57,134 bases of DNA from Bacteroidota bacterium (GTDB lineage Bacteria > Bacteroidota > Rhodothermia > Rhodothermales > UBA10348). Made by a program: the position numbers and the translations under genes. The stretch covers positions 1 through 57,134 of the forward strand of contig JAJCYP010000061.1 of NCBI GenBank assembly GCA_029262855.1, given 5' to 3'. Of this stretch, positions 4,125 to 44,961 are shown in pieces (within the stretch, counting starts at the first letter, position 1; every line of letters begins with the position of its first letter). The notes beneath the pieces are model-generated. The model saw only the letters and a program-made list of their open reading frames with translations. It did no database searches and was not told the origin of the DNA.

Positions 4125-4598
4125 ATGAGACTACCACTTTTTCTGGGTGCGCTTGTCCTTGCGGCACTGTTCGCGGCTGCCGGATGTGACCACGGGCTTG
4201 AACCACCCGAGCGCGCCGCCGACGGATCCATCGTTGGGACGGTGACCTACTCGGGCCCTTGGCCTCCCCGGTCCGAGTTTCAGGACCTGCGGTTTGTGGC
4301 CATGCGATTCGTCCCTCAGGACACACTGGACTTCCTGCAGCTCAATCGGATGGCGATTTCCAGTACGCTCGCCTACGGCGTTGAACAGGACAGCTTCCGA
4401 ATCTCGGCGGTGGCTCCGGGTGTCTTCCTGTACTCCGGTGTCGCGCAGCAGCAGACGAGTGATATCCTGTCGTGGCGGCCGGTTGGCCTGTTCGAGGACA
4501 ACGCGGGCTTGTTCAGCGTGGAGCCCGGAGCCGAAACCCGCATCAACCTGACCGTGGATTTCGAGAACCTGCCGGTCTTTCCCCCGGAGGACCTCTGA
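4125..4598 (+). CDS. Small lipoprotein encoded ahead of a TonB receptor
   Basis: 157 residues with a clear lipoprotein signal: MRLPLFLGALVLAALFAAAGC, with the lipobox AAGC at about residues 18-21. The mature part looks all-beta and Gly/Pro punctuated, without a domain I recognise. GTVTYSGPWPP suggests a carboxypeptidase-regulatory or transthyretin-like fold, but that is a guess. Its stop TGA overlaps the ATG of the TonB receptor (TGATG), so the two are translationally coupled. It may be a surface- or periplasm-facing partner of that receptor. The start was chosen for the signal peptide; GGAGG is unusually close (2 bases), so the start is uncertain by up to eight codons. Confidence 0.75.
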   Translation: MRLPLFLGALVLAALFAAAGCDHGLEPPERAADGSIVGTVTYSGPWPPRSEFQDLRFVAMRFVPQDTLDFLQLNRMAISSTLAYGVEQDSFRISAVAPGVFLYSGVAQQQTSDILSWRPVGLFEDNAGLFSVEPGAETRINLTVDFENLPVFPPEDL

Positions 4599-30206: not shown

Positions 30207-30698
30207 ATGGACGATTTGCTCAATCCCCACAGGAAGTGGATGAAAGCCGCGCTGCGGGAAGCTGAACGCGCTTTCGAGGCAGACGAGGTACCCGTGGGTG
30301 CCGTTGTGGTCCGGGGAAACGTGATTGTGGGCCGGGGGCACAACATGGTGGAACGCCTGGAAGACCCCACTGCGCACGCAGAACTCATCGCCATCACGGC
30401 CGCCTGTTCGACCATGGGCACCAAGAACCTCACCGGGTGCACACTCTACGTCACCCTTGAGCCGTGCCCCATGTGTGCAGGCGCAACCGTGCTGTCCCGC
30501 CTGGACCGAATCGTATTCGGGGCCTTTGACGAGAAGGCCGGGGCGGCCTCCACCCTGTTCAACATCCCGCAGGATCCCCGACTCAACCATCGGGCGGAGA
30601 TCATCTCGGGAATCGAGGAGGAGCGGTGCGCCGAGTTGCTGCAGGAGTTCTTCCGGCGTAAGCGCACCCAGGGCGGGGACCTGACACGTGATGCTTGA
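30207..30698 (+). CDS. tadA: tRNA-specific adenosine deaminase
   Basis: 163 residues. The zinc-dependent deaminase core shows DPTAHAELIAI (His ligand and catalytic Glu, about residue 55) and LEPCPMCAGA (two Cys ligands, about residues 90-93). VPVGAVVVRGN and the helix FDEKAGAASTLFNI, which is typical for TadA, support tRNA substrate use over free cytidine. It makes inosine at the wobble position of tRNA-Arg. The 3' end overlaps the ypdA start by a few bases. Confidence 0.95.
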   Translation: MDDLLNPHRKWMKAALREAERAFEADEVPVGAVVVRGNVIVGRGHNMVERLEDPTAHAELIAITAACSTMGTKNLTGCTLYVTLEPCPMCAGATVLSRLDRIVFGAFDEKAGAASTLFNIPQDPRLNHRAEIISGIEEERCAELLQEFFRRKRTQGGDLTRDA

Positions 30699-31710
30699 CG
30701 CGGTCATTGTCGGCGCCGGTCCGGTCGGACTGGCGTGTGCCATCGCATGCAAGAGGGCCGGCTTGGCCATCCGAGTTGTGGAGAAGGGCGCGCTGGTGAA
30801 CTCCCTGATCGGATATCCGACGAACATGGAGTTTTTTTCGACTCCTGAACTGCTTGAGATTGGCGATCATCCGTTCGCGACCAGCCGCTACAAGCCGCTA
30901 CGCGAAGAAGCTCTGGACTACTATCGGCGGGTGGCTGAGGCGGAGTCTCTCGACCTGTCCCTGTTTACGCGGGTCACGGGAGTTGAGGGCCACGTTGGGG
31001 ATTTTCGGGTTCGCACGGAATCCGCGAGACCTGGCGCGGGTCTGGGCGAGGACCTGGGGGCGGATCCGGGTGCGGGTCCGGGCGCCGAATTGAACGCCCG
31101 CGCCGTCATCGTCTCCACGGGTTTTTTTGATGTCGCCAACCTGCTCAACGTGCCCGGGGAGGATCTTCCGAAGGTCTCCCACTACTACAAGGAGCCGTAT
31201 CGATTCGCAGGGCAGCGTGTCCTGGTGATTGGGGCCAAGAATTCCGCGGCAAAGGCCGCTCTCCAGTGTCGGCGCAACGGGGCCGAAGTGACGATGGCCA
31301 TACGTGGCCCCGCCATCTCCGACCGTGTGAAGTACTGGCTACGGCCGGATCTGGAGAATCGGATTGCCGAGGGATCCATCCGGGCCTACTTCAATGCGGC
31401 CGTATCCCGCATCACGCCTACCGAGGTACTCCTGCAGACTCCCGATGGCGCAGTCGAGCTACAGAACGACTTTGTGCTCGCCATGACCGGCTATCGCCCC
31501 GACTATCCCTTCCTCAGGGAACTGGGTATCGAGGAGACGGATGATGAGGCCCGGACGCCTGTCTACAACCCTGAGACGCTCGAAACCAACCGGCCGGGCG
31601 TTTTCCTGGCAGGAACTGTGTGTGGGGGCCTCAGGACTGGCCGGTGGTTTATCGAGAACGGACGCTTCCACGCGGAGTCGATCGTTCGACGCCTGACCGG
31701 AAAGACCTGA
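30691..31710 (+). CDS. ypdA: YpdA-type putative bacillithiol disulfide reductase
   Basis: 339 residues of a flavin-dependent NAD(P)H oxidoreductase. The N-terminal FAD-binding IVGAGPVGLACAIACKRAG is followed by NSLIGYPTNMEFFSTPELLEIG, which is typical of YpdA. VPGEDLPKVSHYYKEP, the NADPH-binding VLVIGAKNSAAKAAL and a C-terminal GVFLAGTVCGG with the conserved Cys complete it. YpdA reduces oxidised bacillithiol. A Gly/Ala/Pro-rich insertion of about 18 residues near residue 115 is encoded by a 12-base tandem repeat (31034-31081). A GTG at 30688 is an alternative start one codon upstream. The YfiT-like gene at 6890-7414 fits the same thiol system. Confidence 0.9.
   Translation: MLDAVIVGAGPVGLACAIACKRAGLAIRVVEKGALVNSLIGYPTNMEFFSTPELLEIGDHPFATSRYKPLREEALDYYRRVAEAESLDLSLFTRVTGVEGHVGDFRVRTESARPGAGLGEDLGADPGAGPGAELNARAVIVSTGFFDVANLLNVPGEDLPKVSHYYKEPYRFAGQRVLVIGAKNSAAKAALQCRRNGAEVTMAIRGPAISDRVKYWLRPDLENRIAEGSIRAYFNAAVSRITPTEVLLQTPDGAVELQNDFVLAMTGYRPDYPFLRELGIEETDDEARTPVYNPETLETNRPGVFLAGTVCGGLRTGRWFIENGRFHAESIVRRLTGKT
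31034..31081 (+). repeat. 12-bp tandem repeat inside ypdA
   Basis: Four degenerate 12-base units in a row: GCGCGGGTCTGG, GCGAGGACCTGG, GGGCGGATCCGG and GTGCGGGTCCGG. They encode four-residue Gly-Ala/Glu-Gly/Asp-Leu/Pro units in a loop between two strands of the FAD domain. The repeat is in frame, so copy number can change without destroying the protein. Confidence 0.8.
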
Positions 31711-31742: not shown

Positions 31743-33851
31743 TCACTGCTCGAGCGCGGCCAGGATCTGTTGCGCCACGGGATGCCCTGGCTGGGCCTTG
31801 AGCGCTCTGCGTGCATAGAGCCGTGCTGAGCCATGCTCACCCAATTGGTAGTGCGCCGCTGCTCTGTTCGCGAGCGCGTCCGCGTAGTCCGGGGACGCCC
31901 GGATGGCTCGTTCCAGATAGGGAATGGCCCGGTCATACTCCCGGGAGTTGACGTAGTAGGCCCCAAGGTTTCCAAGAGCGACCGGGTTGTCGGGGGCCAG
32001 GAGCACCGCTTGTTCAAACGCGAACCGCGTGCTGTCGGGCTGTCCAAGCTGTCCGTAAACAGCTCCGAGATTGCCCCAGATCTGCGGATCTCGGGGCTCA
32101 AGCTTGACCGCCTCCAGAAGCGATCGTCGAGCCTGTGCAAGTTGGCCTGATCTCGCAAGGGCTGTGCCCAGATTGTAGCTGGCGGCTGCAAGCCACGGCT
32201 CCTGCTCGGTGGCCCTCCGGTAGGCCTCGGTTGCCTCCTGCAGTCGTCCTTGGGACTCCAGAAACCGACCATAATTAACCCAGATGTCTGCGCGGGCAGG
32301 TTGGGCCGCCAACGCCCTTCCGTAGGCCTCCTCGGCTACGGCCAGCTCACCGCCGGTGGCCTCAAGCGCCTGCGCGAACGCATTGAGGAGTTCGGGGACG
32401 TCTCCGTCGAGCCGGATTGCCGCGCCAAGACCTTCAAGCGCGGCACGGGGGTCTCCCAGTTCCAGCCGCGCGAGGCCTCGCAGGAAGTGCGCCTCGCCGT
32501 GAAGGTCGCCCTGGCGCGCCAGACTGTCGAGCAGTGCGGCCCCTTCCCCGAGCAAGGCGGCATCGGCACGCTGGCGGCCAAGGATCACCAATGCCATGCC
32601 CTCATACTCGGTCCGGCCATCCTCGGGCCAGTACGACTCCAGTCTGCCGGCTTCAGTTGGTGCGGGACTGGCCACTTCCCTGCTCGAGACGACGCGGATC
32701 CTGTGATCAGTGAAGGATGAGTGCGGAGCCTCCGATGCCTCGATCCGGGGCATATGACAATCAACGCAGTTTGCCTCGGCGCCGGGATGCGACGGCAGCA
32801 CGGACAGTGCTGGCGAAGCGTGGCAGGTCAGGCACGTCTGATTGAAGTAGGCCGGGCCGCTGGCACGAAACCCCCCGTGGGGGTCATGGCACGTCGTGCA
32901 CTCGAAGGAGCCACTCCGCGCAACGGTCTCGATGAAGCATGCACTCTGCCTCATCCGGTCGGCGTGCGAAATCACGCCGATCTCAGTGCCCAGATCGGGT
33001 TCGGGAACCGAGTACATCGCAACAAAAGCGGACAGGTCGTGGGACGGCCTGAAGTCGAACGCCTCGTTGCCCTCCCGCAGTACCGACACGGTTGTATGCA
33101 GGTGGCACTGCTGGCAGACATCCAGTCGCCGTTCCAGGTTCAGATGAGCCGGATTCACGATGGTCGCGTCAATCTCGGTCAGGGGCTCCGGCACCGCCAA
33201 TCGCTCGGAAACGTGGAGGGCGCCTGGGCCATGACAACGCTCGCATCCAATTCCCTGCGGGATGTCGACGAACTTCCCGCCGGCGAATGGCTCTGCCTCG
33301 GTATAATCGTTGTGACACGCCATGCACCGCTCGGGGACTTTGCGGTCAAAGCGCTTGTTCGCCACCTGATACCCGGGGCTGAAGTCCCAGCGCTCCTTTT
33401 GCGTGTACCATGTGAGCGGGAGTTCATAGAGGAAGCCCTCGCTGTCATCGAAATACGTTCTGGCGGCCGTGCCGCTTCCCATTACGTACTTCATCCTCCG
33501 CTCCAGGGTGTGAATCACCCGTCCCCCTCGATCCTGGAGCTCTTCCACCTGGACGACGGAATCGCCGCGGCGCTCTGCCCGGTAGCGATAGCCGTTCGCA
33601 CGATCCACGATCCATGGCCCCGGCAGGGTCTCGACGGTGTTGTGGGCGGTCAGCTCGTAGAACGAGTTCGCCATTCCGTGCTCCTGAAATCCGGAGTACT
33701 GGTCCTCGTGACAGGAGGCACAGGCCGCAGCACCCACGTATCCGACTGCCGTGTTCGCGTTCAGGAAGGCAGGAGGCGTCGCATCCGAGGGCTGAGACCC
33801 GTCAGAGCAGCCCGCCAGAATCAGGATCGGTATCAGGAGTGCGAACTTCAT
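31743..33851 (-). CDS. Seven-heme c-type cytochrome lipoprotein with TPR domain
   Basis: 702 residues from the ATG at 33851. A lipoprotein signal (MKFALLIPILILAGC, Cys 15) is followed by seven heme-binding CxxCH motifs: CASCH, CMACH, CERCH, CQQCH, CTTCH, CLTCH and CVDCH. After about residue 420 the protein becomes a TPR array with repeats such as YGRALAAQPARADIWVNYG and AYYVNSREYDRAIPYLERA. The layout resembles cytochrome c554-like proteins fused to TPRs. It likely transfers electrons in the periplasm or at the outer membrane while the TPRs bind a partner; the donor and acceptor are unknown. It lies downstream of the PorV-like gene but behind a terminator-like hairpin, so it may be a separate unit. 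Confidence 0.88.
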   Translation of the reverse strand: MKFALLIPILILAGCSDGSQPSDATPPAFLNANTAVGYVGAAACASCHEDQYSGFQEHGMANSFYELTAHNTVETLPGPWIVDRANGYRYRAERRGDSVVQVEELQDRGGRVIHTLERRMKYVMGSGTAARTYFDDSEGFLYELPLTWYTQKERWDFSPGYQVANKRFDRKVPERCMACHNDYTEAEPFAGGKFVDIPQGIGCERCHGPGALHVSERLAVPEPLTEIDATIVNPAHLNLERRLDVCQQCHLHTTVSVLREGNEAFDFRPSHDLSAFVAMYSVPEPDLGTEIGVISHADRMRQSACFIETVARSGSFECTTCHDPHGGFRASGPAYFNQTCLTCHASPALSVLPSHPGAEANCVDCHMPRIEASEAPHSSFTDHRIRVVSSREVASPAPTEAGRLESYWPEDGRTEYEGMALVILGRQRADAALLGEGAALLDSLARQGDLHGEAHFLRGLARLELGDPRAALEGLGAAIRLDGDVPELLNAFAQALEATGGELAVAEEAYGRALAAQPARADIWVNYGRFLESQGRLQEATEAYRRATEQEPWLAAASYNLGTALARSGQLAQARRSLLEAVKLEPRDPQIWGNLGAVYGQLGQPDSTRFAFEQAVLLAPDNPVALGNLGAYYVNSREYDRAIPYLERAIRASPDYADALANRAAAHYQLGEHGSARLYARRALKAQPGHPVAQQILAALEQ

Positions 33852-33916: not shown

Positions 33917-33950
33917 GAAAGGGGCTGACTCCGTCGGAGCCAGCCCCTCT
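33917..33950 (-). terminator. Terminator-like hairpin after the PorV-family gene
   Basis: GGGGCTGACTCC (33921-33932) pairs with GGAGCCAGCCCC (33936-33947) with one A-C mismatch and a 3-base loop. On the minus strand, the direction of the PorV-like gene ending at 33987, it is followed by TTTC. It separates the surface operon from the heme-TPR gene. Confidence 0.7.
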
Positions 33951-33986
33951 CAAGACTCTACAAGTCAGTGTCTAACCCGGATCGAT

Positions 33987-35021
33987 CTAGAGATCGACGC
34001 CGAGGGTAAACATCTGAACGTTGTCAAAGAAGTCTGTCGCCCGGTAGGCATAGTCCAGGTGAAGCATCGTGCCACCGAACTCCACGTTCAGACCAGCACC
34101 GAAGTTGGCGCCGGTCCACATGGTCAGGTCCTGGTCTGGAGTCATTTCGAAGCCGCCGCGAAGGTCGAGCATTTCGAAAAGATTCACTTCGATACCGCCT
34201 GAGTACTGGTCCTGATCGAACGAGTTTGAGCGGAAGTTGCCAATCACGGTCACAAGAGCGCCAGCTCCCATTTCCCGTGTGTAGGCCACACCGAAGTTCA
34301 GCAGGGACGGAAGCTCAACGCCTTCACTCTCGAGAACGAGAGCGTTGTTCGTGGCATCCGGTGCCTGACCAGGGATGCGAACCTGACGAGTCAGGCCAAC
34401 ACCACTGTAGTTCATTGATGTACCGATGTTCTTCAGGCTGACGCCGAGGCGCAGGCCTGACTCCCCGACCACATAGGTCATACCGGCGTCGACGGCGATG
34501 GCAGAGCCACTCACATCATCAATGCTTTCGGTAACAACCTTCAGTGTGGCACCAGCCGCGATGCGGTCGGTGAACTGACGGGCATAGGTAAGGCCGGCCG
34601 TGACGAACGAGGCGTCATACGTAACGGACGAGATCTCAGGCGCAAGCTCCGTCTGCTTCGGAATTGCTCCGAAGTCCCAAGAGGTGACGGTGAAGGCCAG
34701 AGAACTCTGACCAAAGCTTTGCGCCACGCCGAAGTAGTTGACGCCGATGTCGGCGACGTACTCCATCCGGCTGAAGATGGCGCCCGTTCCCTGGTTGTTA
34801 ACCAGGCCAGCGGGGTTTGTGTAGATGGCTTCCAGACCAGAGAGATCTGAGAGACCGCTCGTGAGTGACGAACCCAGCGACGCATTGCGCGCGGTCACGG
34901 GAACCAGGAGCTGTGAAGCTCCTGCCGTGCCACGGCGCTTTTTGTCGCCGGCGTACGCATCCAGAGCCGAAAGCCCTAGCATGGACACGATCACGAGCCC
35001 AAGCAGAATGTTGCGTTTCAT
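33987..35021 (-). CDS. PorV/PorQ-family outer-membrane barrel protein
   Basis: 344 residues from the ATG at 35021, with GGAGG 9 bases upstream. A signal peptide ends at about residue 24 (LDAYA). The mature start AGASQLLVPVTARNASLGSS followed by LEAIYTNPAGL is the signature of PorV/PorQ-family barrels. The rest is a series of beta strands ending LGVDL. Family members such as PorV act with type IX secretion to release or anchor cargo at the cell surface. The gene follows one for a secreted protein with a T9SS-like tail (35115-38498), which suggests that it handles this specific cargo, or serves as its outer-membrane partner. The partnership is inference from gene order. Confidence 0.85.
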   Translation of the reverse strand: MKRNILLGLVIVSMLGLSALDAYAGDKKRRGTAGASQLLVPVTARNASLGSSLTSGLSDLSGLEAIYTNPAGLVNNQGTGAIFSRMEYVADIGVNYFGVAQSFGQSSLAFTVTSWDFGAIPKQTELAPEISSVTYDASFVTAGLTYARQFTDRIAAGATLKVVTESIDDVSGSAIAVDAGMTYVVGESGLRLGVSLKNIGTSMNYSGVGLTRQVRIPGQAPDATNNALVLESEGVELPSLLNFGVAYTREMGAGALVTVIGNFRSNSFDQDQYSGGIEVNLFEMLDLRGGFEMTPDQDLTMWTGANFGAGLNVEFGGTMLHLDYAYRATDFFDNVQMFTLGVDL

Positions 35022-35077
35022 ATCGGAATTCCTCCGTTTCAATATTCGTGGGTGTCGAATCGCTTGCAGGATGAATT

Positions 35078-35101
35078 GGGTCCCGGCAGGCGCCGGGACC
35101 C
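35078..35101 (-). other. Intercistronic hairpin, surface protein to PorV-like gene
   Basis: A perfect 10-bp stem: GGGTCCCGGC (35078-35087) and GCCGGGACCC (35092-35101) with a 4-base loop. On the minus strand it begins 13 bases after the surface protein stop. No T-run follows, so it fits an mRNA-stabilising or partial termination element better than a full terminator. Confidence 0.7.
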
Positions 35102-35114
35102 GATTCCTCATTCA

Positions 35115-38100
35115 CTAGAAAGTGTTGAGCTGCACGCGCTTCTTGATGACAGCGAATTTGATGACCTTCTCACCGATGCCGGGCACATCCACATGGATGA
35201 TGTACATGCCCGACGCGATGGGAAGTCCCTCTTCGGTCGTCATATCCCAGCCGAAGGACTTAGCGGAGCTGTTCTTCTCTAGGGTGGTGATGAGTGTACC
35301 ATTCAGGCTGAAGACCCGGATGGTGGCCTGATTCGGCATGTTCGTGAAACGAGCCTGGTCGACCAGCTGGCTGACTTCGTATGCGGAAGCACCCTTGTAT
35401 GGGTTCGGCGAGATGCCGATTTCCTCGAGGTCTGCAACCTGCTCTTCCAGCGTCTCAGCACGAGCACCGAGGCCAGCCGTTGACAGCGAGAACGAGTCTC
35501 CGGGCTGGTTCGGCTTCGTGGTCTCCATCCGGAAGATGGATCCCTGCTCCGGACCAAGGGGTGACTTGAACGATGACTTGTCGGTGATGTCACCGGCACC
35601 GTTCCAGTCAACGAACACCAGACGAGCGATGACCTCACGGTCAATGCCCGACTCGGCGTCGCCGCCTGCCAAAGCATTGGCGGCCCATGCATCGTAACCG
35701 GCGGAACCTGGCGAACGGTCCACAGGATCGTACCAGTAGATCCAGTCAGACTCAGGATCGTTCAGCGCGCCGGAGATGACACTGTCAAACGCCTGCATGT
35801 CCCAACCATCGGCCTCCCAGTCGATGACTGCAGGAATCATGCGGTAGTCGTCAGAAGCATCATCGGGCGTAGCGATGCCGGTGTTCCAGATCTCGAACGG
35901 CAGATCTGCGCCAACCTGAACGGCTCCGTCGATGAGACCGAACCGGTCGTAGTTGACCGAACCGCCGGCCGTGAAGCGCACTTCGAAGTCGAAGGGCACG
36001 ACATTTCCAAAGCCGTTCCGCATGGAACGTGAGAGGAAGTCGCTGTAGCTGTTCCGCGATCCGTTGTCACCCGTGTGGATGAACCACTGCGACCCGGAAA
36101 CCATCTGGTTTCCGATGTTTGTCCGGCCCAGTCCCGGGTAACCAGCGTAATCAGCGGCAGCACCAGTCGGCTCGGTCAAAGGACCGGCCGCATTGGCGGT
36201 AGCCTTGAAATCGAGCCAATCGTCGGGAGCGCCAGCGATATTGAGCGACAAGCCGTCAAAGCTCACCACGTCAATTCCTTCAGGTGCAGCTCTTCCGGTC
36301 TGCATGGAAGCAGCCGTACCATCAAAGACGACTACGCCGTCGGAGCGCGTCACGTCGTAGGTGGTGACAGTGACCGCGCTGGCGCCCTTCTGGGCCTCAG
36401 GGAGTCTGCCGTCCTCAAGGTCACCGCGTGTGGCAACATCGCTCCACTCGAACCGCTTGGAGTCCAGATCCAGGTTGTAGAACTCAACCGTATAATCCAG
36501 ACCCGTCAACTGCTCGGGGTTGATGACGTTGAGACCAGCACCACCGTTTCCGATGTTGCCGGCTCCACCGGTACCAACGATCGAAGCAGAACCAGCCGCG
36601 ATGTTCGCCGACGCCTGAGTGGCGAGCGCTGAGGCCTCACCTGTGGCGACGACGTCGGACGTGCTCGGCACGACCGAGAAACGGTTGACCGGACCCTTGT
36701 ACACCTTCTGACCGGAGGGCTCATTGTAGGCGTAGGCCTGGACTCCGAAGTAGTAGGTCTGATAGTTGGTCAGACCACCCACTTCGTGGAAGTGGAGCAC
36801 ACCGGAGTCATTGCCTTCGGCGGTAACGAAGGTAATCTCCGTTCCCTCGATGACGCGCTTGATGCCGTTGACCTTGTCGTACGTCGCCAGGCGTTTTCCG
36901 ACTTGGTCAGCGCGTGACGCGTACTGGAACACGTTATACCCCTCGAACTGATAGTCATTGTCCGTGACGTCGTCAGACAGCAGCGGGTCAATGACGTTAT
37001 ACGTGTCGAGGTAGTTGTTGTCGGTGGTCCTGTAGCCCCACTCGATCAGCACCTTGCCATTGCCCGTGGTCGTGGTGACTCGCGGAGCAGCAGGCGGTGA
37101 CGGCAGTTCGAAGTTGATGTCGAATACCGCCTGTGCCAGGAGGTCATCGGCCTTCATCTGCTGAACCGAGTCAAGGTTGTCGTCACCAAAGGAGGTCACG
37201 ATTCCAAACACGATTTCCTGCTCATCATTCGGGCGAATGGTGAACGGACCGGTTGCCATCACGAAGCGACGGTCAGCCGGGGAAATAGCCGTGCCCTGAC
37301 CATCTGAGTTGAACTCACTCCAGAACTCGGGCGGGTTGCCCGGGAATTGGAAGTTGGTCGGGATGTTAGAGAAGTCACGGCCGGTACCACCAATGGTAAA
37401 GCGCTTACCATCTTTCCAACGACCGCGCATGTAGTTGTACATGTCGGCACCATTACCCGGGTCACCCTGGACGCCGGAGTTGTTCGAGTAGAACGCAAAC
37501 GCGGTCATTGACAGACGTTCGCCGTCCTCATCCACTTCTCCGTCGCCGTCGTTGTCCTTGCCGTCGTCCGAGACCAGTGGTCCCTGGAAGAAGTCGTAAC
37601 CGGCGGCCGGAGGAGCTTCACCGTAGCCCTCTCCACCTTCGTCGTCGTTGTCTGCGTTGTAGATATAGCCCATCCCGAGGGTGGTGTCAGATCCAACGTA
37701 GTCGTCGTCGAAGTTTCCGAGGTCAGGATCCGAAAACAGACCCATGTAGGTGTTCTCCAGGGGCACGGAGCCCTTGTAGAAGATGCGGTACTTGTAGAAC
37801 GTCGTGTTGCCGATTGCACCCGCGGTGTTGAAGGCAAACGCCGAAACGTGTGCCTCAACGCCCATTGCCGGGGTATCGGTACGACTGTGGACGTTTCCAC
37901 GGTCGTTCATGATCCACCACAGCATCTGGTCGCCCAGGATGGCAGGACGCTCGCCGGCACCCAGGTTGATCTTGCGATCAATGCGGCTGACGAGTGGCTG
38001 GCCGGTCAGGTCGATCAGATCGCCGTTGGCGTCAAGTGTCGGAGCACCGAGTCCGGTCGGCCAGTCTGCAAGATCAGGCGTGGAAACGCCGGTACCATCG

Positions 38101-38498
38101 TAGTTGACAACGTCTTCCTTGGAAACCTTGAAGACCCGGTCGTAGGGATCGCAATCCGCGGGTGCGGATCCATCATCGTTTAGTGGGCCTGCCCAGAACT
38201 CGTAGGGTCCGTAGGTGGATCCAGCGAGGCGAAGCTGCCCGTTGACGGTGCCGCCCATCCAGATACCCGATGCAAAGATCGCGTTGGAAGGGCCGCCCTT
38301 GGGGATGTTGTAGACGTGGGGTGAGCCACGCCAGAACAGGTTGCCGTTATTCAGGATGCGGGCGCGAACGTTGTTGATGTCGAGGAATGCCTCGCCGATC
38401 GCAGCCTCACATGTACCTGTGCTCTGAGCCTGTGCGGGAACCGCACTCAGGCCAAGCACAACGGCAAGCATAAAGAGGGAAAGTATTCTGTATTGCAT
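35115..38498 (-). CDS. Large secreted surface protein with T9SS-like C-terminal domain
   Basis: 1127 residues from the ATG at 38498. A signal peptide (about 1-25, ending PAQAQ) leads into a long all-beta mature protein. An acidic Ca-binding-type stretch lies near residue 330 (DDGKDNDGDGEVDEDGERL), and a fibronectin-like segment lies near the middle (APRVTTTTGNGKVLIEWGY). The last 100 residues show the sorting-domain pattern: ISPNPYKG, ATIRVFSLNGTLITTLEKN, WDMTTEEGLPIASGMYIIHV and KFAVIKK. That pattern marks cargo of type IX secretion, here with a short extra tail (RVQLNTF). It lies between a TonB receptor and a PorV-like barrel. I infer a surface-exposed binding or capture protein for the receptor. 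No enzymatic motif was seen, and there is no SD before the start. Confidence 0.85.
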   Translation of the reverse strand: MQYRILSLFMLAVVLGLSAVPAQAQSTGTCEAAIGEAFLDINNVRARILNNGNLFWRGSPHVYNIPKGGPSNAIFASGIWMGGTVNGQLRLAGSTYGPYEFWAGPLNDDGSAPADCDPYDRVFKVSKEDVVNYDGTGVSTPDLADWPTGLGAPTLDANGDLIDLTGQPLVSRIDRKINLGAGERPAILGDQMLWWIMNDRGNVHSRTDTPAMGVEAHVSAFAFNTAGAIGNTTFYKYRIFYKGSVPLENTYMGLFSDPDLGNFDDDYVGSDTTLGMGYIYNADNDDEGGEGYGEAPPAAGYDFFQGPLVSDDGKDNDGDGEVDEDGERLSMTAFAFYSNNSGVQGDPGNGADMYNYMRGRWKDGKRFTIGGTGRDFSNIPTNFQFPGNPPEFWSEFNSDGQGTAISPADRRFVMATGPFTIRPNDEQEIVFGIVTSFGDDNLDSVQQMKADDLLAQAVFDINFELPSPPAAPRVTTTTGNGKVLIEWGYRTTDNNYLDTYNVIDPLLSDDVTDNDYQFEGYNVFQYASRADQVGKRLATYDKVNGIKRVIEGTEITFVTAEGNDSGVLHFHEVGGLTNYQTYYFGVQAYAYNEPSGQKVYKGPVNRFSVVPSTSDVVATGEASALATQASANIAAGSASIVGTGGAGNIGNGGAGLNVINPEQLTGLDYTVEFYNLDLDSKRFEWSDVATRGDLEDGRLPEAQKGASAVTVTTYDVTRSDGVVVFDGTAASMQTGRAAPEGIDVVSFDGLSLNIAGAPDDWLDFKATANAAGPLTEPTGAAADYAGYPGLGRTNIGNQMVSGSQWFIHTGDNGSRNSYSDFLSRSMRNGFGNVVPFDFEVRFTAGGSVNYDRFGLIDGAVQVGADLPFEIWNTGIATPDDASDDYRMIPAVIDWEADGWDMQAFDSVISGALNDPESDWIYWYDPVDRSPGSAGYDAWAANALAGGDAESGIDREVIARLVFVDWNGAGDITDKSSFKSPLGPEQGSIFRMETTKPNQPGDSFSLSTAGLGARAETLEEQVADLEEIGISPNPYKGASAYEVSQLVDQARFTNMPNQATIRVFSLNGTLITTLEKNSSAKSFGWDMTTEEGLPIASGMYIIHVDVPGIGEKVIKFAVIKKRVQLNTF

Positions 38499-38546
38499 TT
38501 CTGTCAGTGTTTTGACTACAAGTTCGATTTCAAGATGAGTGGCCCT

Positions 38547-38575
38547 CCCCGGGCGACCACATGGGTCGCCCGGGG
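38547..38575 (-). other. Intercistronic hairpin, TonB receptor to surface protein
   Basis: A perfect 12-bp GC-rich stem: CCCCGGGCGACC (38547-38558) and GGTCGCCCGGGG (38564-38575) with a 5-base loop. On the minus strand it starts 11 bases after the TonB receptor stop and lies about 50 bases before the next start. No T-run follows. It resembles the hairpin at 35078-35101 in position relative to the stop codon. Confidence 0.75.
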
Positions 38576-38586
38576 GAACCAACAAT

Positions 38587-41500
38587 CTAGAAGTCGACTC
38601 GCACGCCGATGCGCGTCAAGCGCGGGAGGCCCCATCTACCGGTACCGCGCGTTCGGTGACGGTAGAGAGACTCCGCGGCTGGAACCGCGCCACTCAGGAA
38701 CTGCTGACCGCCCGCGGTTGACAGGTATCCATCATCACCGGGAAGGCCCGTAGCGCGCCATACGCCTTGGATATTCTCGGTGTCGAGGACATTCTGCACC
38801 CAGAGGAATGCAGACACTGTCGAGCGCGCGCCAGCGGCGAACTTGCGATCGATCCGAAGGTCGATACGGCTGGTCCATGGCATGCGATCGCTGTTGATGC
38901 CACCGGAGGGAACCGGTGCCTTCGAGTCAACGATCGAGAAGGGCTCAATCTGCGGCGTGTACGGGAAGCCGGAGCCAGCCGTGCCGAGAACGTTGAAACC
39001 CATGTTCTCGAAGAGCTTCGCGCCAAACACCGTCGGGCCTTCACCGGCTCCAAGACGGTAGTCCATGGAGAGGTTGACCTTGTGGCGCTGGTCGAAATCC
39101 AGCGGAGAAATGAAGTTCGGAGGCGTCTCGTCGATCCACACGATGGTTGAGGTCGTCGTGGAGGAAGAACCCGTTCCCTGAGCGAAGGACAGCGTGTAGT
39201 TCGCATTGACTGCGACGCCGCCGGAGCGGCGAAGGTCAAAGTCGAGCTCAACACCCTTGACGGTGCCGAAGTCCTTGTTGCTGTAGGTCGAGTATCCCTG
39301 CGGGAAGCTCTCACGAAGGTCATCCAACTGAATCAGGCCACGGATCTGACGGAAGAAACCGGAGATCGTGACGGCTGAACGGGCACTCGTACGCTGGCGG
39401 AAGCCGAGTTCGTACTCGGTGGTTTCCTCAGGCTGAAGGCCGTTGTTGTTGATCCGCCCGGTCGGGGAGGAAAGTCCCGCGATCGAGGTAAAGCTGTTGG
39501 ACGACGGACGCTGAGAAACAACGCCGTAGCGAGCGAAGAAGAGTGCCTCGTTGGTAACGGGGAAGCTCACGCCGATACGCGGCATGAACGTTACCTGGGG
39601 CTCGTAGTCCTCGAAGGCATCTTCGGTCACGATGTTTGACGTCGTCCGCGGCTTGGCACCCGATAGCAGGATGTCACCAGCGGGCACTTCCTGTCCGTTG
39701 GCATCATAGAAGGTGCCATCACGGTCACGGTAGCCGGTGACATCGTTCTGGTTGAAGTACGGTGCGGCGTCGCCCGGTACGTTGGCGGGAGCGCCACCGA
39801 CATCGGAGACGCGAACCAGCGGCAGGCGCGAGAAGCGGTCAAACAGGGTCAGCACGTTGTTGTCGAAGACGTCAACACGCACACCGAGGTTCAGGACGAT
39901 GTCCCGGAACTCGATTTTGTCCTGGATATACCCGCCGTAGTACAGCGGCTTGTGCGGAGCGATGTCGTAGCAGCTCGTCGGTACGTCTTTCGAGACCGAG
40001 AAGCCACAATCATCGGCATAGCCGTTCAGGTCTTCGCTGTCAACCTCCTCCGTTCCGTAGAAGTTGTAGCCGTAGTAGCCGGCTGACATCTGCTCGAACG
40101 TGAGGTCAGTCCACTGCGTAACGCCAACTTCACCGGTCGGAAGACCCTCGGCGCCGTCTGCGTCCTCAACCCAGCGAGCCAGGCCCCATGCCCCACCGCG
40201 ACTAGAGCTGTATGAACGATTCGTCTGCTGTTCGAACTCGCCGCCAAACTCGAGCTGGTGGAGGCCAACCTGCGTCGTTGCCGTGGCATTGAACCGGATC
40301 TGAGTGGCATCAAAGAACGAACGGGTACTGATGTCTTCCCGTCCATAGCTCGCGGAAACCAGGCCACCAGCGGTCTGGTGGCCCGGGCCACGACCATCTT
40401 CCCAACGCTGGGTGTAGGTCGGGACGGAAACCGTGAACTCGGTGTCGTCTGCAGGATCAGCCGTGTCGTGGTCGTCGATGCGCGTCTCGGTGGTAAACGA
40501 GAGGTTCATCGGATACTTCAACTGCGCGTTCGGAGCGGCATCGATATCCCCGTAGGAGAGGATGCTATCCAGCGACTTGCTGAAGTCCGGATCCCACGTG
40601 TCACCGGTGCGGCTGGTGTAATCCACCTGCAGCTGGTAAAACGTCGAGTTGGACAGGTAGTGCGTCCACGTAGCGAAGAACTGAGCGTCCTTGTTACGGA
40701 ATTCGTTCGCCGTGTTGGGCGTGAAGACCATATCACGCTCGGAGACGAACGGAGCCGAGTCGCCGCCGCGGGTGACGTACCGCCCGCCAACGCGGAGGCG
40801 AACGTCATCCAGGAGACTGAACTGCAGGTTGGAGCTAAGCGAGAAGTTGTCGAAACCGCTCTGCCGCTTGAAGCGATTCACCTCACCAACGGTGACTCCA
40901 CTGCGGTCGACAAGCGTCTCGCCATCTGCACCAGTCTGCAAGTAATCGGCCGCGTCCCTCAGTTCAGGATCGATCGAGGAAGCATCGACGCCTTCTGGAA
41001 CCGTGATCACGACGCCGTTGGCCGTGGTGATGGTTCCGTTTGAGACCACAACCGTTCCGTCGTCGTCGACAGGAAGCGAGTCACCACCGATGATCGTGTT
41101 TGGCACATCAATGAAGGAGCGATTGCCGGCACCGTCAAGCGCAAGCATGACCGACGGAAATGCATCCAACTGCGCGAGCGCGTCATCATTGAGACCGAGC
41201 TCTCCAATCCAGCGCGGTCCAGAATCGGCCTGGTCGAGATACTCACCTGCCAGGAAGAAACTGACCTTGTCACCGGCTATCGGTCCACCCACGGCGAATG
41301 ACGCCAGGTTGTAACCGAAATCGTCCAGTGACTCGCTGGTCACGCCTTCGATGGAACCGAAGAACTTGCGTGAACCAGACTTGGTCGTGATGTTGATGAT
41401 ACCGGACATCGCGTCGCCGTAGCGGGCCGAGATGTTGCCGATGATCATTTCCTGCTCCTGGATCGCGGACTGTGGGAGCGCGGTCGAACCGACCACCTTC

Positions 41501-42042
41501 ACACCGTCGATGTAGTAGGTGACCTCAGAGCCACGACCACCACGAACGTTGAGCGTATTGGAACCTTCCTGAGAAACAACACCGGCCTGAATAGAGGCGA
41601 CGGCTGCTGCTCCACGGACGGGCAGGTTCACGAGTTCCTCGGCGTCAACAATCTTCGGGACACCAATGGCGTCCTTCTGAATCAGCGGGCGCTCATACTC
41701 GACAATGATCTCGTCAAGTTGAACTCCCTCTGCTAGGTTAAAGTTGACTTCCTGGGTATAACCGGAGCTGACTTCAACACCCGAAACCGTCGCTGTCGAG
41801 AAACCGACAAACGAGGCTTGGATATCGTAGCTGCCCACGGGGACGCCGATGATGAAATAATTTCCATCGACGTCGCTGATCGTTCCCAGCTGAGTTCCGA
41901 CAACGACGACACTTGCACCAGGCAAGGGTTCACCGGTATCGGACTCCATTACAACACCCGAGATCTTACCTGTGTTTTGGGCAAGAGCTACTGTGGGTAT
42001 TGCAATAAGTGCCAGGACGATCACGCCCCATTTACGCAACAT
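38587..42042 (-). CDS. Large TonB-dependent receptor with carboxypeptidase-regulatory domain
   Basis: 1151 residues. A signal peptide (about 1-22, ending VALAQ) precedes a carboxypeptidase-regulatory-like domain (about 25-110; GKISGVVMESDTGEPLPGAS, DVDGNYFIIGVPVG). A TonB-box-like DEIIVEYERP follows, then a plug with VPKIVDAEELVNLPVRG, NTLNVRGGRGSEVTYYIDG and ARYGDAMSGIINITTKSG. A large barrel ends in IGVRVDF. The start has the strong SD AGGAGGAGG six bases upstream, so high expression is likely. It is the first gene of the receptor-surface protein-PorV block. The size is nearer to SusC-type receptors than to siderophore receptors, but no SusD gene is present. The substrate is unknown. Confidence 0.93.
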   Translation of the reverse strand: MLRKWGVIVLALIAIPTVALAQNTGKISGVVMESDTGEPLPGASVVVVGTQLGTISDVDGNYFIIGVPVGSYDIQASFVGFSTATVSGVEVSSGYTQEVNFNLAEGVQLDEIIVEYERPLIQKDAIGVPKIVDAEELVNLPVRGAAAVASIQAGVVSQEGSNTLNVRGGRGSEVTYYIDGVKVVGSTALPQSAIQEQEMIIGNISARYGDAMSGIINITTKSGSRKFFGSIEGVTSESLDDFGYNLASFAVGGPIAGDKVSFFLAGEYLDQADSGPRWIGELGLNDDALAQLDAFPSVMLALDGAGNRSFIDVPNTIIGGDSLPVDDDGTVVVSNGTITTANGVVITVPEGVDASSIDPELRDAADYLQTGADGETLVDRSGVTVGEVNRFKRQSGFDNFSLSSNLQFSLLDDVRLRVGGRYVTRGGDSAPFVSERDMVFTPNTANEFRNKDAQFFATWTHYLSNSTFYQLQVDYTSRTGDTWDPDFSKSLDSILSYGDIDAAPNAQLKYPMNLSFTTETRIDDHDTADPADDTEFTVSVPTYTQRWEDGRGPGHQTAGGLVSASYGREDISTRSFFDATQIRFNATATTQVGLHQLEFGGEFEQQTNRSYSSSRGGAWGLARWVEDADGAEGLPTGEVGVTQWTDLTFEQMSAGYYGYNFYGTEEVDSEDLNGYADDCGFSVSKDVPTSCYDIAPHKPLYYGGYIQDKIEFRDIVLNLGVRVDVFDNNVLTLFDRFSRLPLVRVSDVGGAPANVPGDAAPYFNQNDVTGYRDRDGTFYDANGQEVPAGDILLSGAKPRTTSNIVTEDAFEDYEPQVTFMPRIGVSFPVTNEALFFARYGVVSQRPSSNSFTSIAGLSSPTGRINNNGLQPEETTEYELGFRQRTSARSAVTISGFFRQIRGLIQLDDLRESFPQGYSTYSNKDFGTVKGVELDFDLRRSGGVAVNANYTLSFAQGTGSSSTTTSTIVWIDETPPNFISPLDFDQRHKVNLSMDYRLGAGEGPTVFGAKLFENMGFNVLGTAGSGFPYTPQIEPFSIVDSKAPVPSGGINSDRMPWTSRIDLRIDRKFAAGARSTVSAFLWVQNVLDTENIQGVWRATGLPGDDGYLSTAGGQQFLSGAVPAAESLYRHRTRGTGRWGLPRLTRIGVRVDF

Positions 42043-42048
42043 ATGCTA

Positions 42049-42057
42049 CCTCCTCCT
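42049..42057 (-). promoter_or_regulatory. Strong ribosome-binding site of the large TonB receptor
   Basis: On the minus strand AGGAGGAGG (42057-42049) lies 6 bases before the ATG at 42042. It is among the best SD sequences in the window, consistent with high translation of the surface operon. Confidence 0.75.
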
Positions 42058-42140
42058 TTAAATTGAGATGTGTGGCTAGCGGGTTATGCGAAGCCGGATC
42101 AAAGTTGATCACGACGCGCACAATTTCTTGTGTGTCATAT

Positions 42141-42192: not shown

Positions 42193-42573
42193 TTTCCGCG
42201 CGGCGAGAAAAACTCGCCAGCGAACCCGGACTCGCCGGACTCGTCGGAATGTCGACCAAGTTGGATCGGTATCTGATCACACGGGGATGGAGTTCAGCGA
42301 AACTGTAACAGTGACGGCTGTTCTCCGTAGTTCTGATTTGCGCAAGAAGCGCGGACCTTGTCGGTCTCCGACGGTTAGCCCCAGTCGAGCAAGATTGGCA
42401 CACCACACCCTTGGAAGGGAGATGTACTTGGCGTGCCTTGGCCGACAGCTGGCTTGGGGGTGAGGGGTCGGGGAGTCGAATTGCCGTAGCGTTGGGTCTA
42501 TGCTTTTGCGCGATTGTGAAACGTTAGTTTCTCGTTCATTGAGTCAATATAGACGGGTGTTTTACCGTAGTCA

Positions 42574-42590
42574 AGGCATTGTGAATGCCT
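42574..42590. promoter_or_regulatory. Perfect 7-bp palindrome, candidate operator
   Basis: AGGCATT-GTG-AATGCCT is a perfect inverted repeat of the size bound by dimeric repressors or activators. It lies in an AT-richer part of the region, about 530 bases before the TonB receptor and 85 bases after serA. Confidence 0.4.
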
Positions 42591-42673: not shown

Positions 42674-44260
42674 CTACAAAAGGGCGTGGCGAACACCCGT
42701 CACACCGTCCAGTTCTCGGATGGCCTGCAACGTTTCTTCTTGAACGGGTTCGTCCACGCTGATGGCTGTCAGCGCTATTGCACCGCGCGCGGACCGTCCC
42801 AGGGCAAGGGCGGCGATGTTGATGCCACCCTTGGCAAGAAGGCCGCCGACATGCGCGAGCATGCCCGGTCTGTCCACGTTGCGGTAGAAAAGCAGTGCGC
42901 CCTCAGGCTTGAGCTCGATCCAGGCGTCGTCCACGCGGACGATTCTCACGTCATCCACGCCGAATACGGTGCCGGCCAGGCTTCGCTCTCCTTCTGTGGA
43001 GGTGAGGACTACCTCGACCAGATTCGTGTAGCTGCCGTCTGCGTGAAAGGTCTGGACGTCCGCCTTCAGTCCCGCTTCCCGGGACAGGACAGGCGCGTTC
43101 ACCAGATTCACCTGCTCGGTGACCATGTCGCGCATGACACCCTTCAGCGCTGCGACTACGAGCACGTCCTTGTAATGACGCGGTACCTCTCCGTGGCAGC
43201 GCACCACCACGCTCCGGGCGGATCCATCCGAGAGCTGATGAGCGATGCGGCCCAGTCTCTCGGCCAGGTCCAGATAGGGTTTGACTTCCGGCTGGGCGGC
43301 CAGGCGAATGGCCATGGCGTTGACTGCCGTGGTGACGGGCTCATCCCGGAGGGCATGAATCACCTGCTCGGTGACCTGACGGGCCACCTTCTCCTGGGCT
43401 TCCCCGGTTGAAGCGGCGATATGCGGTGTGGCAACGACGCGCGGATGCTCGATGAGGGCCCGAAGCGCGGCCGGCGGGGGCTCTGTGGAATAGACGTCGA
43501 GCGCCGCCCCCCCTGCCTGCCCGCTTTCCAGGGCAGCAAGGAGATCCGTCTCATGGATGATGCCGCCTCTGGCGCAGTTCACCAGGCCGACACCGCGCTT
43601 GCAGGTCGCAAGGGACTCGGCATTCAGAAGGCCACGCGTTGCGTCGTTGAGCGGCGTGTGAACGGTGATATAATCGCTTTCACGGAACAGCTCAGCCAAC
43701 TCGACCAGTTCAATGCCCATCCGCTGGGCAATATCAGGCGACAGGACTGGGTCATACCCGAGAATCCGGGTGCCGAACGACTTCATCCGTTCGGCCACGG
43801 CCTGCCCGATCTTGCCGACCCCGATGATTCCGATGGTTTTTTCGAAGACTTCGGCGCCAGTATATGTCTTGCGGTCCCAGGCCCCAGACTTGAGCGACGC
43901 GCTCGCGGCCGGAATCCTGCGGGCGAGTGCCATGAGCATCGCCACGGTGTGCTCGGCCGTCGACACGGTATTGCCGGCGGGCGCATTCATGACGAGGACG
44001 CCCCGGTGGGTGGCCGAGGCCAGATCCACGTTGTCTACGCCGACTCCGGCACGGCCAATCACCTTCAGATTGGCGGCGGCCTTGATCATGGGAGCGGTGA
44101 TCCGGGTCCCGCTGCGAATGATCCAGCCGTCTACGTCGCGGCACAATGAGACCAGTTCATCTGGCGTGCGGCCCAACTCGACGCGGGCCTCTATCCCCGC
44201 CTCCTTCAGCATGTCCGTGCAGATGGAGTGGACGGAATCGGTAATCAGGACGGAGAGCAT
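42674..44260 (-). CDS. serA: D-3-phosphoglycerate dehydrogenase
   Basis: 528 residues from the ATG at 44260, the long form of the enzyme. The substrate domain begins VLITDSVHSICTDML. The NAD-binding motif is TIGIIGVGKIGQAVAERM (about residue 142), and catalytic residues lie in NCARGGII, DVYSTEPP and HIAASTGEAQEKVA. An intervening domain and an ACT domain (ALLFYRNVDRPGMLAHVGGLL) end the protein, so serine feedback is possible. It makes phosphohydroxypyruvate for serine synthesis. An inverted repeat with a TAGTTTG box lies in front of the gene. engB is 113 bases upstream on the same strand. Confidence 0.96.
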   Translation of the reverse strand: MLSVLITDSVHSICTDMLKEAGIEARVELGRTPDELVSLCRDVDGWIIRSGTRITAPMIKAAANLKVIGRAGVGVDNVDLASATHRGVLVMNAPAGNTVSTAEHTVAMLMALARRIPAASASLKSGAWDRKTYTGAEVFEKTIGIIGVGKIGQAVAERMKSFGTRILGYDPVLSPDIAQRMGIELVELAELFRESDYITVHTPLNDATRGLLNAESLATCKRGVGLVNCARGGIIHETDLLAALESGQAGGAALDVYSTEPPPAALRALIEHPRVVATPHIAASTGEAQEKVARQVTEQVIHALRDEPVTTAVNAMAIRLAAQPEVKPYLDLAERLGRIAHQLSDGSARSVVVRCHGEVPRHYKDVLVVAALKGVMRDMVTEQVNLVNAPVLSREAGLKADVQTFHADGSYTNLVEVVLTSTEGERSLAGTVFGVDDVRIVRVDDAWIELKPEGALLFYRNVDRPGMLAHVGGLLAKGGINIAALALGRSARGAIALTAISVDEPVQEETLQAIRELDGVTGVRHALL

Positions 44261-44267
44261 CAAATCG

Positions 44268-44318
44268 CGGATTCGAAGTGCAAACAATGTCCCGACAAAC
44301 TACCCCGACTCGAATCCG
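44268..44318 (-). promoter_or_regulatory. Inverted repeat around a TAGTTTG box upstream of serA
   Basis: CGGATTCGA (44268-44276) and TCGAATCCG (44310-44318) are perfect 9-bp inverted arms 33 bases apart. Between them, on the minus strand, lies GGGTAGTTTG (TAGTTTG at 44302-44296), the box also found in front of tRNA-tuf and tkt. The arms could be a repressor site around the promoter or a leader stem. Confidence 0.42.
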
Positions 44319-44373
44319 TCAGGGGTTAGGATTTGGCGAATGACCCCAGGCGCAACGGCCCTGGCAACGGCCC

Positions 44374-44961
44374 CTAACGAACATGGAGGCCAATCAGCTT
44401 GAGTGCTTCCTCCTTTCCCCGGCCATCCTTTGCTGAGGTGAGGATTACCGGGACCTCGAGGCCCATGCCTTTCCCGGCCTTCACGACGGCCGCAACGTTC
44501 TTCGCCCGCTGGTTTCCGGACAGCTTGTCTGATTTCGTCATCAGCACCGCGTAGACGGCCGTCGATTCACGGATCAGCGCCATGATCTCCAGATCCAGGG
44601 GAGTCGGATCGTGACGCCCATCAACGAGGTGGAGAATCAGCCTCAGTGACTCGCGCGTGGCGATATAGCCGCCGATGGTTCGCTGCCAGGCGGCTCGCTC
44701 CTTCTTGGACACCCGCGCGTAGCCAAACCCCGGCAGGTCCACGAAATAGAACGCATCATTGATGCGGTAGAAGTTCAGCTCGCGCGTCTTGCCCGGTGTC
44801 CCACTCGTCCGGGCCAAAGCCTTTCGATTCACCAGGCGGTTGAGTAGCGAACTCTTCCCCACGTTGGACCGACCAATGAAGGCCACTTCAGGGGCGCCGG
44901 GCGCCGGCAACTCAGCCAGGCTGGGTGACGCCCGCTCGAAATTTGCGGTCTTGATCTTCAC
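44374..44961 (-). CDS. engB: Ribosome biogenesis GTP-binding protein EngB (YsxC)
   Basis: 195 residues, normal length. GTPase motifs are G1 GRSNVGKSSLLN (about residue 30), G2 region SGTPGKTRELNFY, G3 DLPGFGYA and G4 TKSDKL. The KERAAWQRTIGGYI segment is typical of the EngB/YihA/YsxC family. It assists assembly of the large ribosomal subunit. It lies between sucD (66 bases upstream on the same strand) and serA, possibly in one transcript, though the serA promoter element argues for partial independence. Confidence 0.96.
   Translation of the reverse strand: MKIKTANFERASPSLAELPAPGAPEVAFIGRSNVGKSSLLNRLVNRKALARTSGTPGKTRELNFYRINDAFYFVDLPGFGYARVSKKERAAWQRTIGGYIATRESLRLILHLVDGRHDPTPLDLEIMALIRESTAVYAVLMTKSDKLSGNQRAKNVAAVVKAGKGMGLEVPVILTSAKDGRGKEEALKLIGLHVR

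Follow-up and report, generated by a model that had tools for sequence, protein, structure and literature searches.

The 57,134-nucleotide stretch of contig JAJCYP010000061.1 (hereafter, the window), from a Bacteroidota bacterium of the order Rhodothermales, carries a cassette of three adjacent minus-strand genes that encode a TonB-dependent receptor (TBR), a secreted candidate capture protein (SEC) and a barrel of the PorV/PorQ family (PORV). We find that TBR-SEC-PORV is a real, ancient, all-or-none three-gene unit. This unit is likely to be a SusCD-like importer in which SEC, exported by the type IX secretion system (T9SS), would be tethered by PORV and capture a nutrient for TBR. The observations behind this interpretation are the conserved gene order, the all-or-none linkage, a C-terminal domain (CTD) of SEC that tracks PORV, the predicted folds, and the glycan loci that surround sister copies of the cassette.

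38587..42042, minus strand: TBR, TonB-dependent receptor, 1151 amino acids, with a CarboxypepD_reg N-terminal extension, plug and barrel (profile searches)
35115..38498, minus strand: SEC, secreted capture-protein candidate, 1127 amino acids, no Pfam domain above the cut-off
33987..35021, minus strand: PORV, PorV/PorQ-family barrel, 344 amino acids (profile search, predicted structure)
42049..42059, minus strand: Shine-Dalgarno sequence of TBR, AAAGGAGGAGG (direct reading)
37104..38411, minus strand: N-terminal region of SEC, model residues 36-471, predicted beta-supersandwich
35118..35441, minus strand: CTD of SEC, model residues ~1026-1133, divergent T9SS domain of the cassette type

Direct reading of the window gives the order TBR, SEC, PORV along the minus strand at 33987-42042, as reported in a preliminary description of this DNA. 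That description also noted the strong Shine-Dalgarno sequence of the 1151-residue receptor; AAAGGAGGAGG indeed stops 6 bases 5' of the ATG. The start of SEC was set at the first plausible ATG (38498) of an open reading frame (ORF) that extends to 38585, and the start of PORV at the ATG at 35021, which has its own GGAGG; the longest PORV ORF encodes 374 amino acids.

Conservation of the cassette

Relatives of SEC were detected in 125 of the 296 sampled genomes of the phylum (E<=1e-10), and the complete triplet is present in 47 of the 60 loci picked by SEC (L058-L117). A scan of named genomes yielded at least 556 SEC relatives; among the best 80 of these, which come from Rhodothermales, Ignavibacteria, Melioribacteraceae, Neomarinimicrobiota, KSB1, Calditrichota, Zixibacteria and unresolved metagenome-assembled genomes, the triplet was found in 53. 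Counting only the 52 loci that had enough flanking sequence on either side, it is present in 47. Clustering of all SECs at 90% identity left 118 clusters with at least 1400 nucleotides on each flank, and 88 of these, four being own-genome loci picked by PORV rather than by SEC, have TBR upstream and PORV downstream, 30 have neither, and none has only one of the two, as scored with TBR, SEC and PORV profiles trained on part of the loci later scanned with them. Conservation of the gene order outside close strains, which the preliminary description had put forward as one test of its proposal, thus holds across several phyla. In the 53 triplets, the intergenic gaps range from -193 to 148 nucleotides by ORF limits. 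Carriers of the window type include a cultured species, Stygiobacter electus (locus L162). A full triplet is also found on a contig labelled Deltaproteobacteria (Myxococcota by name; L183), an apparent case of either transfer or mis-binning.

The genome from which the window derives (4.74 Mb, 146 contigs), the one genome in which the T9SS was looked for, encodes the core components PorU (961 bits) and SprA (1970 bits); a housekeeping PorV adjoins PorU on contig C41, and a true PorQ is encoded on C86. The TBR-SEC-PORV order recurs in this genome on C61 (the window), C110, C32, C54 and C49, and on C39 with TBR cut at the contig end. This recurrence, the spread of the triplet across phyla, and the presence of PorU and SprA in the same genome together amount to more than chance. 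There are 13 PorV-family matches in this genome, 11 of them above the cut-off, and 123 matches to the type A sorting model TIGR04183, of which 118 are above the cut-off and some lie on mirrored-looking contigs. By coordinates, a single one of these 123, that of the window itself, is directly upstream of a PorV-family gene. On C52 and C138, TIGR04183 matches occur at mirrored positions with equal scores, so that these contigs look like assembly-made inverted duplicates which inflate the own-genome counts. A PorV-family copy on C8 comes near the PorV2 model NF052325 (270.7 bits, cut-off 325). On C5, a 2358-residue protein with a PorU-like CTD match is encoded directly before a divergent PorV-like gene (L024:2928-11020); this is a different substrate-barrel pair.

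PORV and the C-terminal domain of SEC

The assignment of PORV to the PorV/PorQ family, made already in the preliminary description, is borne out by the family model NF033709 (112.5 bits, cut-off 90). PORV scores far below the equivalog models for PorV (NF033710, 23.6 of 250 bits) and PorQ (NF033711, 79.6 of 220 bits). The AlphaFold2 model (pLDDT 87.9) is a FadL-type barrel with 14 long strands by manual count. Its best match among solved folds is PorV in the CTD-bound T9SS translocon (8gl6_F, TM 0.68), with FadL and TodX next behind, and by sequence PORV matches PorV 6h3i at E 2e-27. In a quick tree of the PorV family, 45 core-cassette barrels, drawn from the clusters, form one clade separate from the PorV, PorQ and PorV2-like proteins of the window's genome (SH-aLRT 99); this tree contains long branches, and the starred core clade alone was used. 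It also took in four extra barrels from L218-L256, three of which were entered twice under two labels.

The type of CTD borne by SEC is associated with the presence of this barrel. We typed the CTDs in 146 clusters, obtained from 163 non-truncated ORFs among 187 SEC ORFs (the 24 truncated ones were dropped), by the higher-scoring of two profiles, one built from 54 tails of non-SEC proteins only (type A) and the other from 48 triplet SECs (cassette CTD); 7 of the 146 clusters lacked room and were set aside. The underlying sets were 48 of the 53 triplet SECs (A1; five own-genome paralogues left out), 17 of those 48 (A2), and 52 of the 53 barrels (A3). All 103 SEC clusters with an adjoining PORV carry the cassette CTD, whereas the 36 clusters without PORV are divided between the cassette CTD (20) and the ordinary type A CTD (16; Fisher p 1.9e-11, the rows not being independent). 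Outside the training set, the cassette CTD was found in 51 of 51 clusters with PORV. Scores against the type A profile range from 10.8 to 40.6 (median 24.7) for PORV-linked SECs and from 37.3 to 111.9 for lone type A SECs, with a slight overlap.

In a FastTree phylogeny built from 138 SEC bodies stripped of their CTD (one short type A sequence having been excluded), the type A CTD requires 8 changes, and among the 35 lone rows the starred branches force at least 5 CTD changes. Across 8 independent tree pairs, the type A CTD and the absence of PORV agree in 7 to 8, with 0 against (median p 0.008). Taken together, the changes on the tree and the pairs imply that SEC bodies repeatedly acquired the widespread type A CTD in loci lacking the private barrel. 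Given that the cassette CTD always accompanies PORV and that the type A CTD is found only without it, PORV is probably the private carrier and anchor of SEC.

Predicted folds of TBR and SEC

The preliminary description held that the system is built from parts different from those of SusCD, and this is correct, because the curated model does not place TBR in SusC/RagA, nor does Pfam place SEC in SusD. TBR contains the TonB beta-barrel domain PF00593 (75.5 bits in the Pfam scan), with the plug scoring slightly below its Pfam cut-off. Against the SusC/RagA model TIGR04056 (cut-off 368.25), the window copy reaches 52.3 bits and two sister copies 75.4 and 73.9. The SusD family is absent from the Pfam scans of the window SEC and three sister SECs, and the signal peptide of SEC, by direct reading, ends ..VPAQAQ, without a lipobox cysteine.

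That SEC is a 1127-residue secreted protein with a T9SS-like tail, as described previously, was confirmed, although the tail is borderline for TIGR04183 (cut-off 23): 18.6 bits in one scan, and 22.8 and, with neighbours, 23.7 in another. The PorZ model matches the same last ~100 residues better (E 2.5e-6), and the nearest solved chain by sequence is PorZ 5m11 (E 0.009). More generally, the nearest models of the cassette CTDs are PorZ and PorU; no type B CTD or PorP/SprF model is among the NCBIfam matches of SEC and PORV at E<=0.1. In core SECs close to that of the window, a conserved C-terminal extension that ends in KKRxQLNxF follows the last CTD strand (35118-35150, minus strand, in the window); the SECs of the sister cassettes in the same genome end before this extension.

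The structure model of SEC, derived from 48 sequences (pLDDT 85.6, pTM 0.73), predicts that its N-terminal half is a beta-supersandwich as in enzymes of the glycoside hydrolase (GH) types GH15, GH94 and GH116. Residues 38-537 align to the beta-supersandwich of dextran dextrinase 9ju0_BBB (Z 19.2, rmsd 3.2, 253 residues), and in the fold search this stretch also aligns with cellodextrin phosphorylase and a GH116 glucosidase. A long helical barrel is not apparent in the secondary structure of the model. SEC as a whole was rejected as a known structure: the sequence search, run with no separate query for the segment that links supersandwich and CTD, matched the PorZ CTD only.

Sister cassettes in glycan utilization loci

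Sister cassettes fill the place in uptake loci where SusCD would stand. In the window's genome, the C54 cassette is followed by a T9SS protein with carbohydrate-binding modules (CBM20/CBM53), a T9SS GH13 amylase, a second GH13 protein and a major facilitator superfamily sugar transporter. Upstream of the C110 cassette lie LacI and a CBM4_9 T9SS protein; downstream of it are a sugar substrate-binding protein, two permeases, two GH130 proteins and a MalK-like ATPase. SEC matches of the starch type and the GH130 type occur in 126 and 124 genomes, respectively, from which 25 and 14 loci, mostly the best matches, were fetched (the 14 being 14 of the 15 close GH130-type matches outside the genome of the window). 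TBR-SEC-PORV is present in all of these 25 and 14 loci. Where there was room, the CBM20 protein comes next in 23 of 23 starch-type loci and GH13 is found in 19 of 20; the GH130-type loci encode the substrate-binding protein (14/14), a permease (14/14) and GH130 (11/11).

A relative, genome G003, harbors three further complete cassettes, each with the cassette CTD. Downstream of one are genes for a T9SS CBM9 protein and for a member of the GH10 xylanase family. Another has a T9SS CBM9 protein on one side and, on the other, two proteins of the glucoamylase family, a GH3 protein and a sugar substrate-binding protein. The third adjoins an Amidase_2 protein, as does the C39 cassette in the genome of the window. 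An Amidase_2 protein is thus seen after the cassette in two genomes (L259:4471-13238, L015:1-7393), and the nutrient of this sister type may be cell-wall material.

Proposed mode of action and alternative interpretations

If the interpretation of the cassette as an importer is correct, the three proteins would act as a single unit in TonB-coupled uptake at the cell surface. SEC would be exported by Sec first and by the T9SS translocon second, its special CTD being taken up by the PorV-derived PORV, not by the housekeeping PorV. PORV would then retain SEC at the cell surface without cleavage of its CTD, in the way that PorU is held by PorV and PorZ by PorQ. SEC, positioned over or beside TBR, would capture the nutrient via its beta-supersandwich half and pass it to TBR for TonB-driven import, so that a protein unrelated to SusD, anchored by unrelated means, would take over its task. 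We infer the holding of the CTD by PORV, the complex with TBR, the capture and the transport from the genomic associations and predicted folds described above; that the window copy would work like its glycan-linked sisters is suggested by analogy.

The preliminary description presented PORV as a dedicated release or anchoring partner. The association with a special CTD favors a private carrier and anchor; anchoring fits better than release because PorZ and PorU, which have the nearest CTDs, are described in the consulted part of the literature as keeping the CTD uncleaved, held on PorQ and PorV, respectively (PMC10202324). Of the proposed likeness to SusCD, the part that stands comes from the sister cassettes in glycan loci and does not extend to the surroundings of the window copy. 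The suggestion that SEC replaces SusD was not supported in the sense of mutual exclusion: across the 296 genomes, SusD (PF07980) and SEC are both present in 66, SEC only in 59, SusD only in 93 and neither in 78 (p=0.81). For the 69 genomes with a strong SEC match (E below ~1e-39, a threshold picked by eye), p=0.10.

Several observations weigh against the importer as outlined. The free, statistically independent coexistence of SEC and SusD is one of these, and no glycan gene adjoins the window-type cassette. The sugar-enzyme fold shared by SEC shows neither sugar binding nor function. A point in favor of the importer, the correlation of the pairwise distances of TBR, the SEC body, the CTD and PORV (rho 0.70-0.84; 50 of the 53 triplets), cannot separate co-evolution from shared vertical descent. 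In a variant on C74 (L019:9741-13678, minus strand), TBR is directly followed by PORV, with no SEC between them. Finally, the cassette CTD on 20 of the 36 SEC clusters without an adjoining PORV means that the barrel also works in trans, unless some SECs do without it. For 11 of these 20, a complete cassette from the same genome is among the fetched loci, so that service in trans is conceivable there; for one further cluster (L197) there is a SEC-PORV pair with the upstream side cut, leaving 8 others. In Flavobacterium johnsoniae, three orphan type B substrates are served by one SprF-like barrel, according to the accessible text of PMC12618676.

The cassette could instead be a surface-display unit, with PORV as a private carrier and anchor, SEC as an adhesin, coat or enzyme, and TBR importing something unrelated or signalling. 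The link between the CTD and PORV can stand without any role in transport, catabolic genes are absent beside the window copy, and SprB-SprF is such a pair for an adhesin, as far as the available text goes (PMC9143113). This reading is nevertheless unlikely, given that clusters have either both TBR and PORV or neither of them (0 of 118 have just one), and that sister cassettes are located in sugar-use loci together with inner-membrane transport genes. It appears improbable that SEC is an ordinary type A client of the housekeeping PorV, PORV being a generic co-transcribed porin: the cassette CTD is related to type A (15 of the 17 A2 members match TIGR04183 at E<=0.01), but a type A CTD is found on 0 of 103 SEC clusters with PORV vs 16 of 36 without. 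The view that PORV is a channel for hydrophobic compounds, as in the FadL superfamily, with SEC as a binding protein, TBR as a second route and the T9SS likeness reflecting shared ancestry, seems highly improbable. FadL and TodX do rank next in the fold search, but the best match is PorV in the CTD-bound translocon, and knowing that PORV is present is enough to predict which CTD SEC bears.

Extending the importer interpretation beyond the window, we slightly favor the possibility that the cassette represents a second basic plan for TonB-coupled nutrient capture, of ancient origin within the FCB superphylum, in which a T9SS-exported beta-supersandwich protein, held permanently next to a TonB receptor by a private PorV-derived barrel, would have been duplicated and re-targeted to starch, GH130-type glycans, xylan and other nutrients. 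Outer-membrane glycan uptake in Bacteroidota and their relatives is currently read through SusCD; if the proposal is true, an entire class of uptake loci escapes predictors that rely on SusC-SusD pairs, in Rhodothermia and perhaps also in Ignavibacteria, Neomarinimicrobiota, Calditrichota and Zixibacteria. Lineages such as these are common in sea water and sediments. PorV paralogues would then be substrate-specific anchors rather than one common shuttle, which would explain the 13 PorV-family genes in the genome of the window. The working rule that one PorV shuttle recognises all type A CTDs, as worded in the accessible text of PMC12618676, would be broken, and a natural series of CTD-barrel pairs would become available for reading out the recognition code.

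Comparison with known systems

The unit is a new arrangement of known kinds of parts, and would be close to categorically new if the complex were shown. Like SusCD/RagAB, it combines a TonB receptor that has a CarboxypepD_reg extension with an adjoining large surface protein, and its sister cassettes belong to glycan-use loci with outer-membrane, periplasmic and inner-membrane steps. Unlike in SusCD/RagAB, TBR falls below the SusC/RagA model (52-75 bits vs 368), SEC has no SusD domain or lipobox and is predicted to be beta-rich with a T9SS-type CTD, and there is a third gene, PORV.

SprB-SprF and PG1035-PorP resemble the cassette in that a T9SS substrate has its own FadL-family barrel, carrier and anchor, often encoded directly downstream, as stated in the sections consulted (PMC9143113, PMC12618676). 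Those pairs consist of a type B CTD and a PorP/SprF barrel, whereas the cassette CTD has type A/PorZ/PorU kinship, its barrel derives from PorV, and the unit includes a TonB receptor. With PorU-PorV and PorZ-PorQ, the cassette shares the CTD kinship and, putatively, the seating of the CTD on a PorV-family barrel. However, those proteins are parts of the secretion machine, SEC matches neither PorU nor PorZ outside the CTD, and SEC is encoded in several paralogous cassettes. PorV2 (NF052325, putative type IX sorting system protein) is likewise a PorV-family paralogue, to which the C8 copy is close, but the window PORV has no match to this model; with PorV2 curated in NCBIfam, PorV paralogues as such are already known.

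In the xylan locus of Rhodothermus marinus (Rmar_1067-1081), the SusCD pair is Rmar_1077/1078, and apart from it the locus has a TonB receptor (Rmar_1070) followed by two hypothetical proteins, the first of which bears a Por sorting domain (Rmar_1071, Rmar_1072), as given in the accessible part of PMC6987092. That part of the paper points to Rmar_1077/1078 and does not treat the other three genes as a unit. Set beside the cassette by description rather than by sequence, Rmar_1070-1072 may be an unrecognised cassette. In our literature search, with subscription papers and preprints outside it, none of the papers listed described a T9SS protein and a TonB receptor in partnership with a PorV paralogue.

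Flanking signals and neighbouring genes

33917..33951, minus strand: RNA hairpin and short T run 3' of PORV (z -4.6 for a 71-nucleotide stretch)
42546..42574, minus strand: promoter-like TTGACT-17-TATATT, ~500 nucleotides upstream of TBR (consensus scan)

Overall, what the consensus scan picked up as promoters and terminators did not exceed chance, with 3 promoter-like sites found in the window region vs 2.5 expected by chance. The hairpin 3' of PORV is strong, yet the terminator scan gave no call there; it perhaps marks the end of the transcription unit. Directly after the module, a multihaem cytochrome c fused to tetratricopeptide repeats is encoded (31743-33851, minus strand). This gene family is next after PORV in 23 of 86 loci with room and, lying behind the strong hairpin in the window, was not adopted as a fourth part. 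A gene for a GWxTD-domain protein is next after PORV in 27 of 88 loci with room, many of the Ignavibacteria type (e.g., L185:4554-5951), followed in some loci by a lipid A acyltransferase; the GWxTD and cytochrome genes occur together in 1 locus only.

Upstream of the module, the window carries the housekeeping genes serA and engB (42674-44961, minus strand). Upstream of window-type cassettes, SerA is found in 24 of 71 and EngB in 18 of 66 loci with room, and this recurrence across the phylum suggests an old chromosomal place. Elsewhere in the window, another TonB receptor is encoded without an adjoining SEC or PORV (4472-6835, plus strand), and an oxidoreductase, which we take to be YpdA-like, carries a low-complexity GADPGAGPGAEL-type insertion (30688-31710, plus strand).

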